Source of the DNA: Thermosediminibacter oceani DSM 16646
GTDB taxonomy: Bacteria > Bacillota > Thermosediminibacteria > Thermosediminibacterales > Thermosediminibacteraceae
Reading direction: 5' to 3'
Assembly: GCF_000144645.1 (NCBI RefSeq)
Contig: NC_014377.1
Location: 2,108,001 to 2,172,000 of the forward strand
Length of the DNA stretch: 64,000 nucleotides
How positions within the stretch are numbered: position 1 is the stretch's first letter; the number at the start of each line of letters is the position of its first letter. A model generated the notes under the pieces. It made no database searches, was not told the origin of the DNA, and was given only the letters and a program-made list of their open reading frames with translations. This document shows positions 46,908 to 53,811 of the stretch, in pieces. A program made the translations under genes and the position numbers.

Positions 46908-48177
46908 TGTAGATGAGCCACAGTTTCGTTCACACTACTTTATTAAAGTGAAAAAGACATTGCAAAGGGTGGGTATCCCTGGGGTATTATGGATATGGAA
47001 CAACAGAAACCCACTAAGGAGGGATCCCACCCAATGACATTATACCAAAAACTTAAAGCTTCGGGTAATCCCCAGGCTGTTGCTCAAATCACTATCTCTT
47101 TACTTGAGTCTCATTCCGTTAAAGAAACCGCTAAAATCTTGGGTGTTACTCCAAGATGGGTGTATAAATTAAGAGAGCGTTTCAGGCTTTCTAATGGGGA
47201 TATATCGGCCTGTATCAAAAAACGAGGACCTAAATTCCGCATGCCTAACAGAACTCCGGAGCACATCGAAAATTTGGTCGTTACTCTGGCAAAAGAAACT
47301 AATCTGGGCTCTAAAAGGCTGGCATTGTTCATTAAAAATACCTTCAATATTCAACTTTCCCCTTTTACTATTCGAAATATTAGAAGACGTTACGGTATAC
47401 ACTGCCGTAAACACAAGACGCTTACCGGCTCCCGCCGATTTGCTACAGATTTCTCCGCCTTCGAACCTTTGCAGCTCTGGCAGATCGATGCAAAACATAT
47501 CGCCGATCAATCGGCTTTGCCTCCCGAAGCTTATGCATCTATTTTCAAAAATAAGCTGCCTCCTTTTCAGTTCACTGCTATTGATATTAAAACAAGGTTG
47601 CGCTTTATTGCGTATGCCGATTCTCTCGATTTTAAAAATGGGTTGACTTTCATGCTGCTTGTGGCAGCCTGGCTTAGAGCCTTCGGTGTAAAACATCAAC
47701 TCTTCTTTCAAACAGACAATGGAGCAGAGTTCGGAGGCAGTGCCGGCTCTCGTAAAAGAAAACTCATTCAAAAACTTATTTTCGATCATTGGAACGTATC
47801 TTTGCTTAATATCCCGGAAAGGAATAAGGAAACAAATTGCTTCGTTGAACGCTCTCACCGCACTGATGATGAGGAGTTTTACGCTTTAAACTTGAAAAAA
47901 GTAACTTCAAGGACTTCATTCCTAAAGATGGCTCAAAATTGGATACTATATTTCAACTACAGGCGGCCGCATTTTGGCAAAAACATGAATGGAATGACTC
48001 CTGTTGAGGCGTTGAAGTTTTATCGCTGCTTTTATCATCCTGCAATTGGTTCTATGCCTGTAGTTGTTTTGGATCAGCTTTCTAATTACACTTCTTTGCT
48101 TTTTGACATCTCTTCTTTGCCCTGGGATAACCTGCCCAGAAATAAAAAGCTATTGAACGAAACTATGGCACATTACA
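46908..48177 (+). mobile_element. IS481-like insertion sequence, 1270 bp
   Basis: The ends are imperfect inverted repeats: left TGTAGATGAGCCACAGTTTC-GTTCA and, on the other strand at the right end, TGTAATGTGCCATAGTTTC-GTTCA. It is flanked by a perfect 15-bp direct repeat. TGT ends and target duplications of up to 15 bp are IS481-family features (known). The single gene is intact, so the copy looks recent. Confidence 0.88.
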
Positions 48178-48188
48178 AAGAGGCATAA
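47034..48188 (+). CDS. IS481-like transposase (DDE integrase fold)
   Basis: The 384-residue protein has a helix-turn-helix (VKETAKILGVTPRWVYKLRE), a second DNA-binding helix set, and the rve core with catalytic Asp in LWQIDAKHIADQ, Asp in FFQTDNGAEFGG and Glu in NCFVERSHRTDDEE. ATG at 47034 follows AAGGAGGGATCCCACCCA; an earlier in-frame ATG at 46989 lacks a site. The right terminal repeat lies inside the coding region, and the last codons plus the stop come from the target duplication. Confidence 0.92.
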   Translation: MTLYQKLKASGNPQAVAQITISLLESHSVKETAKILGVTPRWVYKLRERFRLSNGDISACIKKRGPKFRMPNRTPEHIENLVVTLAKETNLGSKRLALFIKNTFNIQLSPFTIRNIRRRYGIHCRKHKTLTGSRRFATDFSAFEPLQLWQIDAKHIADQSALPPEAYASIFKNKLPPFQFTAIDIKTRLRFIAYADSLDFKNGLTFMLLVAAWLRAFGVKHQLFFQTDNGAEFGGSAGSRKRKLIQKLIFDHWNVSLLNIPERNKETNCFVERSHRTDDEEFYALNLKKVTSRTSFLKMAQNWILYFNYRRPHFGKNMNGMTPVEALKFYRCFYHPAIGSMPVVVLDQLSNYTSLLFDISSLPWDNLPRNKKLLNETMAHYKEA

Positions 48189-50077: not shown

Positions 50078-50323
50078 ATGAGCGAAAGAATAATCTTCGA
50101 TGATTATATAAAACAGTTACAAAAAGATTCTTTTAAAATATACAGCCTGATGGAATCTGAACAAACCCCCGGAAAAAAAGTAAAGCGAAAACCCCGCGAT
50201 CCCGAGGAAACCTTCGTCCTTTTTCTACTCGATTATAAAAGGTGGCAGAGGGCGTTAAAGACCGGTGCCATTAGCGAAATCGCCCCGAGGAGGTACAGAT
50301 TAGATTGGATGAAAAATTTTTGA
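50078..50323 (+). CDS. Small partner of an AbiEii-like nucleotidyltransferase, possible antitoxin
   Basis: The 81-residue protein begins MSERIIFDDYIKQLQKDSFK and has a basic middle (PGKKVKRKPRDPEE) and FLLDYKRWQRALKTGAISEI. The ribosome binding site is AGAGGGATGGTTT. It overlaps the next gene by 19 bp, as in toxin-antitoxin pairs. I do not recognise the family; the basic patch could bind DNA or RNA. Confidence 0.7.
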   Translation: MSERIIFDDYIKQLQKDSFKIYSLMESEQTPGKKVKRKPRDPEETFVLFLLDYKRWQRALKTGAISEIAPRRYRLDWMKNF

Positions 50324-50889
50324 AGCGGCACTTAAAGTCTATTGCAGATGAACACAACAGTTTGAAGAAGGCATTAAAAATTACGGCAATTATAACTGAA
50401 GCCTTGAAAATCAAAAATATCAAGCCTATCCTTGTTGGTGGCAGAGCATTAGAATTTTATACTCTTGGAGGTTATGCGACAAAAGATATCGATCTAGTAA
50501 TAAGAGGCAGAGAGCACGCAAAAGAAGTTTTTGAAAAGCTGGGTTTTACCAGAAGACCAGGAGAAAGGCATTGGTACAATGAAGAGATGGATCTTGCTAT
50601 TGAAGTTCCCGATGAATACCTTGCAGGATCAACAGATAGAGTTATCACAGTCGAAATAGATAATATGGAAGCTTATATAATCGGTATCGAAGATCTGATA
50701 ATAGACAGGTTATTGGCGGCAAAGTTTTGGCATAGCACTGATGATGAAGAGTGGGCGATAAAAATTATGGCATTGCACTTTAAGAAGATAGATTTTGATT
50801 ATTTAAAAGAAGAAGCCCATAAAAACCAGGTTGCAGATTTATTAACTTCCGTTATCGATAAAAGCAAGAAATTAATAGAAAAATTATAG
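50305..50889 (+). CDS. Nucleotidyltransferase-fold protein, AbiEii/DUF6036-like
   Basis: The 194-residue protein has the minimal nucleotidyltransferase core: a GG motif (ILVGGRALEFYTLGGYATKD) with the DxD in KDIDLVI, then a third acidic residue in EEMDLAIEVPDEY. AbiEii-type proteins act as toxins that add nucleotides to tRNA (family knowledge). The TTG start at 50305 follows GAGGAGGTACAG. The 81-residue gene before it is the likely antitoxin. Confidence 0.75.
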   Translation: MDEKFLKRHLKSIADEHNSLKKALKITAIITEALKIKNIKPILVGGRALEFYTLGGYATKDIDLVIRGREHAKEVFEKLGFTRRPGERHWYNEEMDLAIEVPDEYLAGSTDRVITVEIDNMEAYIIGIEDLIIDRLLAAKFWHSTDDEEWAIKIMALHFKKIDFDYLKEEAHKNQVADLLTSVIDKSKKLIEKL

Positions 50890-50910: not shown

Positions 50911-51525
50911 TTATAGCTCCTTTACCATTATCAACCAATCACCCTGAAGGTCCCTGGTTCTTCCGACCGGTTTGAAACCGTACTTTTCATAGAGCCTCAC
51001 AGCCGGAGCGTTGTCGGGCCTTACCTCCAGCTTGATCCGCCGGATCCCTAAGGAAGAAAGGTAGTTTATTCCCGCCTGGAGAAGCTTTTGCCCGATGCCC
51101 CTGCCTTGGCACTTTGGAGAAACCGCTATGGAAAGCAGCTGGGCCGAGGGCTTGCTGGTAGCCTCGAATCTCACGTAACAGAGCTTGTTAAGCACCACCC
51201 TGTAAATTGTCGATAAGCCTACGCCGTATATTCCGCGAATGGCCTTTGAAAATATCTTGAAGAGAAAGCCGGAAAAGATTGCCCTCAGCCACAGCTTTTT
51301 TATGTCGTCGGCCATGACTATATATCCTAAGACCTCGTTGCCGTCGACGGCCACCATGAACCCACCGTCGAAAGTGTCCCGCAGCAGGGCGAAAAAGTCG
51401 CGGAAAGCCTCTTTGACGGCGGAACTCATAGGTGTAAAAAAAGTTATACTTTTATGAAACGCTGCGCAGAAGATATCCACCACAGCCTCAATGTGTTTGA
51501 TCTCCGCCGCTATTATTTTCATCAA
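50911..51525 (-). CDS. GNAT-family N-acetyltransferase
   Basis: The 204-residue protein has the acetyl-CoA motif LLSIAVSPKCQGRGIGQKLL (QGRGIG) and the C-terminal strand-helix LEVRPDNAPAVRLYEKYGFK. The substrate is unknown; the layout resembles RimI-like enzymes with a longer middle helix. It overlaps the deacetylase gene by 38 bp, implying co-expression. Confidence 0.88.
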   Translation of the reverse strand: MMKIIAAEIKHIEAVVDIFCAAFHKSITFFTPMSSAVKEAFRDFFALLRDTFDGGFMVAVDGNEVLGYIVMADDIKKLWLRAIFSGFLFKIFSKAIRGIYGVGLSTIYRVVLNKLCYVRFEATSKPSAQLLSIAVSPKCQGRGIGQKLLQAGINYLSSLGIRRIKLEVRPDNAPAVRLYEKYGFKPVGRTRDLQGDWLIMVKEL

Positions 51526-52747
51526 CCTGCTCCTCCGTCCTCATAAGTTCTGAGAGGAAGATCATCTGGTCAACGGTCACGAATTCGTACCCCCTGGCCC
51601 TCAGCTCATCGATCACAACCGGAAGGGCCCTGACGGTACTCGTTCTGTCGCCGCCTTTGAAGGTCACCAGGTCGCCGCTGTCGTGAAACAGTATTATCGA
51701 GCCCGGTTTCACCCGGTTTACCACGCCGGAAACTATTTTATTGGGCGGCAGTTCGGCCCAGTCCATAGCGGACACATCCCAGAGTACAATCGTGTAGCGT
51801 TCTTCCTTTAAAAACTTTCTGGAGTATGACGAATAGATACCCCTGGGTGGCCTGAAAAGTGTTGTCCTTACACCGGTCGCCTTTTTTATGGCCTCTTCGG
51901 CTTTTTTAATCTCTTCCCGGGTAGCCTTGGCAGAAAGCGGTATTAGGCTCCTGTGGGAATAAGTGTGGTTGCCTATGGAATGTCCTTCTTTTGCTATCCT
52001 CCTTGCGACATCAGGGTACTGCTCCGCATTTTTCCCGATCAGAAAAAACGTGGCGGGGACTTTCTTTTCTTTTAATATGTCTAATATCTGAGTAGTATAT
52101 ACGGGGTCCGGGCCGTCGTCGAAGGTTATCGCCACGTATTTGAATTGGTCGGGGCCGCGCCGTATTATATCCTTCTGCACGCCGAAACCTTTGTATACGT
52201 ATTTGTTAAAAAAGGCCAGCATCAGCAAAAAGAACAGCAATAAAGCAAAAGCCGTCCGGGTAAAAACCGTAGGTTTTAACCGCTTTTCCAAAGCCGGAGG
52301 CCAGTACTGCACGGCCAGGTTGCCGAATATCAAAAGCGATATTATTATAAAGGAATCGCTCTTGAAAAAGCTGAACGCAAGCACGGGTATTAAAAAGGAG
52401 GCAGCGAAAACCGCATTGTCATAATCGTTAAAGAGAAATTTAAGGAGCAGGAAGAAAAACAGTAAAATTAGCCCGAAGACCGGCGACATGAAGGTGATCA
52501 CTCCAAGCGCCAGGGCCTCCGTGGTTTCTCCGTCGAATTTATAAAAAAGAGGCCTGGTATGCCCCATAAGCGCCCCAACCGAAGCGAAAAGATAGGAAAC
52601 TCCGGAATGAAGGTACATACCCGACAGCCACATGGTGAGGTATCCTTTGGCAAAATCAAGGATATAGCGGCCCACCGTGCGCTTCCTTATTACAAATAAG
52701 CTGCATATAAGGTAGGATATTATTCCTGAAAGCCAGAGCAGCGCCAT
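51488..52747 (-). CDS. PlsY-like membrane domain fused to a polysaccharide deacetylase
   Basis: The N-terminal half (residues 1-185) has about six hydrophobic segments and recalls PlsY acyl-phosphate:glycerol-3-phosphate acyltransferase: ISYLICSLFVIRKR, LDFAKGYLTM, and GHTRPLFYKFDGETTEALAL where PlsY has GHxFPVFLxFxGGKG. The N-terminal GSGNxGATN motif is missing, so catalysis is doubtful. The C-terminal half (about 195-390) is a NodB domain: VAITFDDGPDPVYT, HSIGNHTYSHRSL, FRPPRGIYS and FHDSGD. ATG at 52747 follows AAAGGAGATG with 9 bp spacing. Confidence 0.85.
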   Translation of the reverse strand: MALLWLSGIISYLICSLFVIRKRTVGRYILDFAKGYLTMWLSGMYLHSGVSYLFASVGALMGHTRPLFYKFDGETTEALALGVITFMSPVFGLILLFFFLLLKFLFNDYDNAVFAASFLIPVLAFSFFKSDSFIIISLLIFGNLAVQYWPPALEKRLKPTVFTRTAFALLLFFLLMLAFFNKYVYKGFGVQKDIIRRGPDQFKYVAITFDDGPDPVYTTQILDILKEKKVPATFFLIGKNAEQYPDVARRIAKEGHSIGNHTYSHRSLIPLSAKATREEIKKAEEAIKKATGVRTTLFRPPRGIYSSYSRKFLKEERYTIVLWDVSAMDWAELPPNKIVSGVVNRVKPGSIILFHDSGDLVTFKGGDRTSTVRALPVVIDELRARGYEFVTVDQMIFLSELMRTEEQVDENNSGGDQTH

Positions 52748-52874
52748 TGACATCATCTCCTTTATGTATTTATATGTATTTTCCTCAGCGCGTGCTCCCG
52801 CCCTTTGCCGTTTTATATTAGACATCTACAAAAATTTTAAAGGACAGGTCTTTTCGACGTCAATGTACTAAACT

Positions 52875-52902
52875 TTGTCTTGACTTGCTTATTTGTTATA
52901 AT
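52875..52902 (+). promoter_or_regulatory. Promoter of the mntA-hepT pair
   Basis: TTGTCT (52875-52880) and TATAAT (52897-52902) are 16 bp apart. Confidence 0.65.
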
Positions 52903-52951
52903 AGAATTTTGTTTAGGAGTTTTGCCATACCGGGCAAAAGGAAGTGAGAAA

Positions 52952-53383
52952 ATGCCATTGGACCTGATCCAAATTGACAGGGAGAAGTTGAAAATTTATA
53001 TTGAAGAAAAGCTCGGCCAATTCGATGAAATCGCTGGGGTATATCTTTTTGGTTCCGCTATTGATAAAATGAGACCTGACAGCGACATAGATTTGGGTAT
53101 AATACTGGTACCCGGTGCGGTAAAATCTGAAAAAGAGCTTGCCCTTTTTCTAGAAAAACTATATCTCGCATTGAGAAATTTCGACGGACATCCCTTTGAC
53201 CTGATTTCTGTAAGGCACGTAAATACAATCCTTGCTTTCGAAATTTTACGGCACGGTGTTCCTCTTTTGATAAAAAATGATGAAGTTGTTTCGGAAGTTA
53301 TAGAATCTATCAGCCGGAGATATCGAGATGTATATCCGAGATATAAAAAGGCCCTTCAAATCATAACGGGAGTGAGTATATAA
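52952..53383 (+). CDS. mntA: MntA-like antitoxin nucleotidyltransferase
   Basis: The 143-residue protein has the minimal nucleotidyltransferase motif GVYLFGSAIDKM then PDSDIDLGIIL (GSx10DxD). MntA AMPylates the HepT toxin and so silences it (known for the system). ATG at 52952 follows AAAGGAAGTGAG; a longer frame upstream has no site. The stop and the hepT start overlap as TAATG. Confidence 0.88.
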   Translation: MPLDLIQIDREKLKIYIEEKLGQFDEIAGVYLFGSAIDKMRPDSDIDLGIILVPGAVKSEKELALFLEKLYLALRNFDGHPFDLISVRHVNTILAFEILRHGVPLLIKNDEVVSEVIESISRRYRDVYPRYKKALQIITGVSI

Positions 53384-53811
53384 TGTCACAAAATGAAATT
53401 ATTTCAAGAAAAATAGCTTTCATCAAAGAACAAATCAGTGAAATAGATTCTTTAATAAAAAATAAAAGCAGGGAGGAAATTCTAAAAGACTCCTGGCTCA
53501 TTAAAGGCCTTAAATACTCCCTTCAAACCGCTATCGAGGCCATGATCGATATCACTTACCACATCTGCGCTAAACATTTTAAAAAAGCTCCCGTTGACGC
53601 AAGAGACGGTCTCGGAATTCTTCTGGAAAATAATCTAATAACCGAAAGAGATTTTTTAACTTTCAGCCAGATGGTCGGCTTCAGGAACAGAGTAGTGCAC
53701 GGTTACGAACAGGTATCTGCGGAAAGGGTATACGAATTAGCGGCAAATGAGCTGTTAGACTTCAATCGATTTATCGATCTGGTACTGGAATATATAAGAA
53801 AAGCTCCGTAA
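53383..53811 (+). CDS. hepT: HepT-like HEPN toxin ribonuclease (DUF86)
   Basis: The 142-residue helical protein has the RNase motif RNRVVHGYE (R-x4-H followed by Y) in VGFRNRVVHGYEQVSAERVY. The tyrosine is the residue AMPylated by MntA in known pairs. The start overlaps mntA by one base. The stop codon lies in the loop of a terminator shared with the convergent macB-type gene. Confidence 0.9.
   Translation: MSQNEIISRKIAFIKEQISEIDSLIKNKSREEILKDSWLIKGLKYSLQTAIEAMIDITYHICAKHFKKAPVDARDGLGILLENNLITERDFLTFSQMVGFRNRVVHGYEQVSAERVYELAANELLDFNRFIDLVLEYIRKAP

Follow-up and report, generated by a model that had tools for sequence, protein, structure and literature searches.

The window, a 64,000-nucleotide stretch of DNA from the thermophilic deep-sea bacterium Thermosediminibacter oceani DSM 16646, carries a gene in which a membrane domain descended from PlsY, predicted to be catalytically dead, is joined to an intact NodB/CE4 deacetylase domain. 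This gene is followed directly by one coding for a GNAT N-acetyltransferase. PlsY catalyses the committed step in the synthesis of phospholipids and is a drug target. On balance, we favor a model in which the fusion protein is a membrane-held amino-sugar N-deacetylase built on a PlsY-derived pseudoenzyme and often works with the GNAT protein encoded by the adjacent gene. No paper joining PlsY with a polysaccharide deacetylase, and none on PlsY as a pseudoenzyme, was found among the matches listed from the open-licence literature, and the same search turned up nothing at odds with the statement in a preliminary description of this DNA that no protein of this build had been described. That description recognized the fusion of a PlsY-like domain with NodB, which both Pfam models (PF02660, above its cut-off, and PF01522) match; it missed the GNAT partner gene and the fact that the fusion represents a widespread family. 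The features are as follows.

51488–52747, minus strand: coding sequence of the fusion, 419 amino acids, with the pseudo-PlsY domain, an eighth transmembrane helix (TM8) and the NodB/CE4 deacetylase (open reading frame, Pfam, AF2).
52757–52763, minus strand: likely Shine-Dalgarno sequence AAAGGAG, 9 nucleotides 5′ of the ATG at 52747 (sequence).
52274–52747, minus strand: seven-helix domain of PlsY fold, residues 1–158, with catalytic motifs lost (PF02660, VIA Z 18, alignment).
52676–52693, minus strand: VIRKRT, residues 19–24, a short loop at the site of PlsY motif 1, GSGNxGATN...R (alignment).
52529–52564, minus strand: GHTRPLFYKFDG, residues 62–73, remnant of the PlsY phosphate-hole region (sequence, alignment).
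52193–52270, minus strand: eighth transmembrane helix, residues 160–185 (AF2, topology).
52154–52207, minus strand: family linker NKYVYKGFGxQxxxxRxG, residues 181–198 (conserved in 25 of 25 members).
51542–52153, minus strand: NodB/CE4 deacetylase domain, residues 199–402 (PF01522, Foldseek match to 4l1g, five motifs).
50911–51522, minus strand: downstream partner gene coding for the GNAT N-acetyltransferase, with its ATG at 51522 and GGAGGAG at 51530–51536 (sequence, Pfam, loci).

The best start for the fusion gene is the ATG at 52747, and the longest open reading frame would encode 445 amino acids. The nearest named relative found is that of T. litoriperuensis (L063), at 80% in the N-terminal part.

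The membrane half descends from PlsY and keeps the PlsY fold. PF02660 matches residues 28–142 over profile positions 49–151 with 36.5 bits against a cut-off of 24.1 (E 6.4e-9), and among five relatives scanned, three exceed this cut-off (L018, L010 and L008), L011 scores 19.2 bits and L017 yields no match. When a profile of the N-terminal part built from 14 members was used to search the PDB, the solved PlsY structure 5xj5 was found at E 3e-8, with a gap in the alignment that takes out the motif 1 segment. The AF2 model of the fusion, made with 10 aligned sequences (mean pLDDT 79, pTM 0.75), has helices at residues 2–16, 25–45, 49–64, 76–87, 89–106, 109–127 (broken), 131–147 and 160–185, followed by the NodB domain. 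Seven PlsY-like helices therefore extend to residue 147 and the eighth occupies 160–185, which fits the PlsY-like span of residues 1–185 assigned previously. The N-terminal part modelled alone, again with 10 aligned sequences (mean pLDDT 70, pTM 0.70), retrieves PlsY at each of Foldseek ranks one to five (E 9.9e-4 to 3e-3, probability 1.00, TM 0.56–0.65), and the first non-PlsY row stands at E 1.5. VIA-align likewise returns four PlsY entries with Z scores of 17.6–18.1 over 156–158 residues, whereas the next row scores 6.0.

Profile and structure comparison had been named beforehand as the tests by which a PlsY relation could be refuted, and both came out positive for it. Chance resemblance is ruled out by the profile, the PDB sequence search and the structure comparison. 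No transporter scored near PlsY in the Foldseek and VIA structure lists, which does not by itself exclude a transporter. In common with PlsY (PF02660; PDB 5XJ5–5XJ9), the fusion has the topology of a seven-helix fold with a short TM4, a YLIGS-like TM1, and the LDxxKG and GHxxPxF regions. The segments LDxxKG and GHxxPLFxxFxG, on which the first suggestion of a PlsY relation was based, are present as LDFAKG (residues 30–35) and as GHTRPLFYKFDG. A canonical PlsY is encoded elsewhere in the T. oceani genome (178.9 bits, positions 1–164), which makes the fusion an additional copy, and the idea that it is the sole PlsY of the genome can be discarded. With the PlsY equivalog model the fusion scores 34.9 bits, below the cut-off of 137.2.

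What sets the fusion apart from PlsY, besides the added eighth helix and NodB domain, is the absence of motif 1, Lys104 and motif 3. According to a study of PlsY (PMC5700162), glycerol-3-phosphate (G3P) is bound by Ser35, Arg45, Lys104, Asn180, Ser142 and His177, and the acyl-phosphate by Thr41, His92 and the backbone of residues 104–107. Table 2 of the same source gives mutants that retain about 1–8% of activity, including S35A (4.8%), T41A (4.8%), R45A (1.1%), K104A (7.4%), H177A (6.5%) and N180A (4.6%). We aligned 25 members of the family, including the T. oceani fusion, with three canonical PlsYs. Motif 1 (GSGNxGATN, carrying Ser35, Thr41 and Arg45), whose absence had been remarked on before, is deleted in T. 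oceani; motif 2 (GG[KR]G, Lys104) reads GETTEA, and Thr75, just past GHTRPLFYKFDG, occupies the place of Lys104; motif 3 (HRxNI, His177 and Asn180) is replaced. None of the three motifs is kept in any of the 25 members. Two of them retain more of the ancestral sequence: L081 has GGTG for GGKG, and L086 has a longer loop at this site that lacks the motif. The place of His92, which is His63 in T. oceani, is filled by His in 13 members, Gln in five and other residues in seven.

Judged from this alignment, the residues for binding G3P and acyl-phosphate have been lost from the PlsY-like half, which supports the earlier proposal that the membrane half may have lost acyl transfer. Annotation based on PF02660 may mislabel the fusion as a glycerol-3-phosphate acyltransferase. 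We consider it very unlikely that the domain retains an activity of its own, either another acyl or phosphate transfer or the movement of a substrate or product across the membrane. The PlsY fold is indeed kept, as is the phosphate-hole His in just over half of the members, but there is no conserved polar cluster on the working face of PlsY. Across residues 1–180, no positions but G35, G82, P89, P121 and D131 are shared by 22 or more of the 25 members, and D131, which is invariant in all 25, is the sole polar one. A conserved PlsY fold that is catalytically dead and carried on a deacetylase would represent a reuse of this fold.

In the deacetylase half, PF01522 matches residues 199–319 with 140 bits (E 4.8e-41), and the five NodB motifs (TFDDGP, HxxxH, RPPR, DW and LxHD) are intact in 25 of 25 members. 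The linker residues Y183, V184, Y185, G187, F188, Q191, R196 and G198 are also present in every member. The best Foldseek match to this half is 4l1g (E 7.8e-17), which together with 5o6y is closest to it, and both are peptidoglycan GlcNAc deacetylases. The same five motifs, the same fold and a likely extracytoplasmic location are shared with PgdA, PdaB and Bc1960, which are CE4/NodB enzymes of this type, whereas the fusion adds the PlsY-derived membrane module, the linker YVYxGFxxQ and the GNAT partner. The best-scoring model for the NodB domain is PdaB (TIGR02764), with 193.9 bits against an equivalog cut-off of 237.4, and the fusion also falls under the PgdA equivalog cut-off. Lys and Arg are more common in the predicted inner loops of all 25 members, and these loops are also longer. 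This excess predicts that NodB should face outside, and from the loop charges and the topology of PlsY we place the domain outside the membrane. The suggestion that the deacetylase faces the wall is thus in agreement with the predicted topology and the intact NodB motifs.

The fusion is found in at least 25 of the 398 genomes of the phylum that were sampled, representing 15 families with a patchy distribution, which answers a proposal that the same fusion be sought in other clostridia. At least 22 of these genomes, among the matches listed, were identified with the N-terminal profile as carrying an open reading frame of more than 400 amino acids that includes the linker. GNAT led to another three, in G244, G170 and G213; the one in G213 is truncated at the end of a contig. 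In the pairs that were compared, purifying selection acts on both halves. For the PlsY-like half, dN/dS is 0.16 between T. oceani and T. litoriperuensis and 0.12 for L065/L064 (dS 0.6–1.0 in both), and 0.37 for L065/L066 and 0.34 for L008/L009, the two closest pairs, which have few changes. The NodB values for these four pairs are 0.07, 0.07, 0.07 and 0.14, and GNAT gives 0.145 between T. oceani and T. litoriperuensis. A decaying pseudogene is ruled out by these ratios and by stop-free frames in relatives. A scan of viral contigs with the T. oceani N-terminal part, made with phage carriage in mind, found no relative.

In two loci (L078 and L081) the gene order is der-plsY-gpsA-spoIVA-fusion, with GNAT next in L081, and in L073 the fusion directly follows spoIVA. 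The genes der and gpsA were named from sequence, and the spoIVA assignments in G322 and G253 agree with a spoIVA survey. These arrangements suggest that the fusion arose by plsY duplication beside plsY-gpsA-spoIVA. They could also be read as a sign of a sporulation system, in which the pair would modify glycans of the spore cortex or germ-cell wall, as would the PdaB model being the top scorer for the NodB domain and the location of a GNAT gene after a LysM-GH18 gene in one genome (G102, L124). We regard this role as unlikely. The PdaB score misses its cut-off, the adjacency to spoIVA may merely trace the place of origin, and spoIVA is present in 336 of 398 genomes, so that its presence in fusion genomes says little and co-occurrence with it is uninformative as a test. 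Sporulation of T. oceani is given as "not observed" in PMC3035372. No paper tying a polysaccharide deacetylase to sporulation and spoIVA was found in the open-licence literature.

The GNAT gene begins within the 3′ end of the fusion gene, and the two share 35 base pairs. The GNAT gene product matches PF00583 with 71.6 bits against a cut-off of 20.7. No named NCBIfam equivalog reaches its cut-off among the best 25 of 42 families, the top one being RimI with 69.8 bits versus 86.4. PDB matches lie mainly over the acetyl-CoA-binding half, and the profile also has conserved residues N-terminal to that half (W79, G86, G98, Y100, N113 and K114). This preceding part may contact the membrane.

In 15 of 25 fusion loci, GNAT is the next gene downstream and has the same orientation; eight of these loci come from the order of T. 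oceani and seven from other lineages (L079–L084 and L086). A profile search at E 1e-30 found this GNAT subfamily in 42 of the 398 genomes. Of these, 18 carry the fusion, 11 have GNAT beside another NodB, three have it beside or fused to the de-N-acetylase PIG-L, and 10 are others. The two genes are adjacent in 17 of the 18, the fusion lying elsewhere in G163. Among the 22 genomes whose fusion was detected without recourse to GNAT, 15 carry it, versus 2.3 expected (22 × 42 / 398) if shared ancestry is ignored. The remaining seven (G003, G004, G027, G041, G237, G322 and G328) lack the subfamily, so GNAT is not essential there. A smaller sample of 35 genomes, with GNAT in nine of 17 that carry the fusion and in none of 18 others, had given the impression that GNAT is confined to fusion genomes; this is refuted by the 24 of 42 GNAT genomes without a detected fusion.

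In 11 genomes, a NodB matching the family profile lies beside GNAT (L130–L136, L138, L139, L142 and L143). These short NodBs have about 260–330 amino acids where the start is visible and apparently two helices, as judged by eye. Those examined have no match to the N-terminal profile, and Pfam finds NodB alone in L130 and L136; L134 holds masked bases. The N-terminal part of the L138 NodB (G358) lies past the contig end, and an apparent NodB-GNAT fusion at this locus, whose frame runs through masked N's, was counted as adjacency only. GNAT frames of 436 (G163) and 360 amino acids (G170) were likewise set aside as long open frames rather than clear fusions, the latter with masked letters. Two genomes, G061 and G354, carry next to the GNAT gene a PIG-L gene whose N-terminus looks hydrophobic by eye. 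In a third (G345, L129:4872–6890, minus strand), PIG-L and GNAT share one 672-amino-acid open reading frame with a Pfam-unmatched segment between them and an in-frame stop just 5′ of the PIG-L part. No membrane helix is evident in this protein, so both of its domains would be inside. Among nine GNAT genomes without a visible deacetylase, the five inspected (G284, G316, G199, G337 and G124) have no family NodB or PIG-L motif within about 2–5 kb on each side; G173, G223, G293 and G357 (same genus as G316) fall outside that set. In L121 (G284), likely tsaE-tsaB and tsaD genes, named by eye, flank a GNAT gene of opposite orientation, with no deacetylase seen.

The recurring unit is therefore a deacetylase plus GNAT, with pseudo-PlsY as one of several membrane modules for it. 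That the deacetylase beside GNAT can be NodB or PIG-L favors a shared substrate class over chance. No paper on a gene neighborhood of this kind was found in the open-licence literature, and the findings point to an undescribed two-gene system that modifies amino sugars of the cell envelope. This unit, whose NodB and PIG-L components seem interchangeable, opens an undescribed modification of amino sugars in Bacillota to experimental testing.

Could the membrane bundle be a plain anchor? Under this explanation, a chance gene fusion supplied a tether for an ordinary peptidoglycan GlcNAc deacetylase of the wall, and GNAT is a passenger. In sequence and structure the NodB domain is nearest to soluble deacetylases of peptidoglycan and of sporulation; the face that bears the PlsY active site on the cytoplasmic side has eroded, with a variable His92 place; and a version with a short N-terminus exists in the same NodB clade. 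In a tree of NodB domains that took seven of 18 other NodB rows and left out L138, 28 fusions and 10 short forms are split from the seven others (branch 95/87). Ten of the 11 GNAT-adjacent NodBs fall in this fusion clade, and the short forms make up one clade (100/100) that nests among the fusions, with a long branch and open forks. In another tree, without L093, four long-branch rows (L023, L026, L027 and L028) nest among the fusions (2 changes). A single origin of the fusion and short-NodB clade is likely, and the PlsY-like part may have been either lost or gained within it. However, one helix would suffice for a tether, yet purifying selection maintains the seven-helix part in the tested pairs, Asp131 and the linker are invariant, and GNAT follows the deacetylase even when a replacement from another family takes its place. 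We find the plain anchor doubtful, while giving it some weight. Since the bundle is kept by selection, it probably does more than tether the enzyme.

In the model we favor, the fusion would act as an extracytoplasmic CE4/NodB amino-sugar N-deacetylase. The PlsY-derived bundle, presumably no longer making lysophosphatidate, would hold it at the membrane, and the added eighth helix would take the chain outside. In many genomes, including that of T. oceani, the GNAT from the adjoining gene would serve as its partner. The bundle could act as an anchor or, as the preliminary description also entertained, as a binder of a lipid substrate. It might have been kept as a platform that holds NodB near a membrane-proximal, possibly lipid-linked, GlcNAc-containing substrate. 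The simplest suggestion is that it binds a substrate linked to lipid, because the ancestral PlsY fold binds acyl-phosphate in the membrane. GNAT should need acetyl-CoA and is thus expected inside the cell, where it might acetylate amino sugars of the same type, to restore the acetyl group on recovered fragments or to protect the amine before export. Against this model, a NodB outside and a GNAT inside cannot share one site, and NodBs of the same clade without the PlsY-like bundle show that it is dispensable for some.

A more elaborate possibility, which we consider quite unlikely, is that a lipid-linked amino sugar passes through a cycle of acetylation and deacetylation across the membrane. 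A membrane-associated GNAT would acetylate the amine at the inner face, pseudo-PlsY would bind the carrier head group in the former acyl-phosphate groove, and NodB would deacetylate outside. If so, PlsY, an enzyme that makes lipid, would have become a module that binds lipid substrates while sugars of the envelope are modified.

ArnD has a NodB fold. For adding and removing an acyl group around a lipid-linked amino sugar, the ArnA formyltransferase and ArnD deformylase of the L-Ara4N pathway provide a precedent: as described in PMC12748117, an amino sugar first receives an acyl group, which a deacylase then takes off the lipid-linked sugar. The two systems differ in that the group is formyl there and acetyl here, no glycosyltransferase partner was found here, and the lipid-linked substrate is here only supposed. 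An acetyltransferase acting on glucosamine and glucosaminides, to go by a paper title, reportedly has a role in wall recycling, and it is likened to GNAT by this description rather than by sequence.

Other genes near the fusion in the window include a divergent pair at 52880–53811 (plus strand), a nucleotidyltransferase gene (PF18765/PF01909) followed by a HepT-like gene (PF01934), which looks like an MNT-HepT toxin-antitoxin system. Relatives of these two genes flank the fusion in L088 as well. At 46989–48188 (plus strand) lies a gene resembling transposases, with matches to helix-turn-helix models and, weakly, to an integrase core. Two small overlapping open reading frames at 50078–50889 (plus strand), the second of which codes for a DUF6036 nucleotidyltransferase, are possibly another pair of the toxin-antitoxin type.
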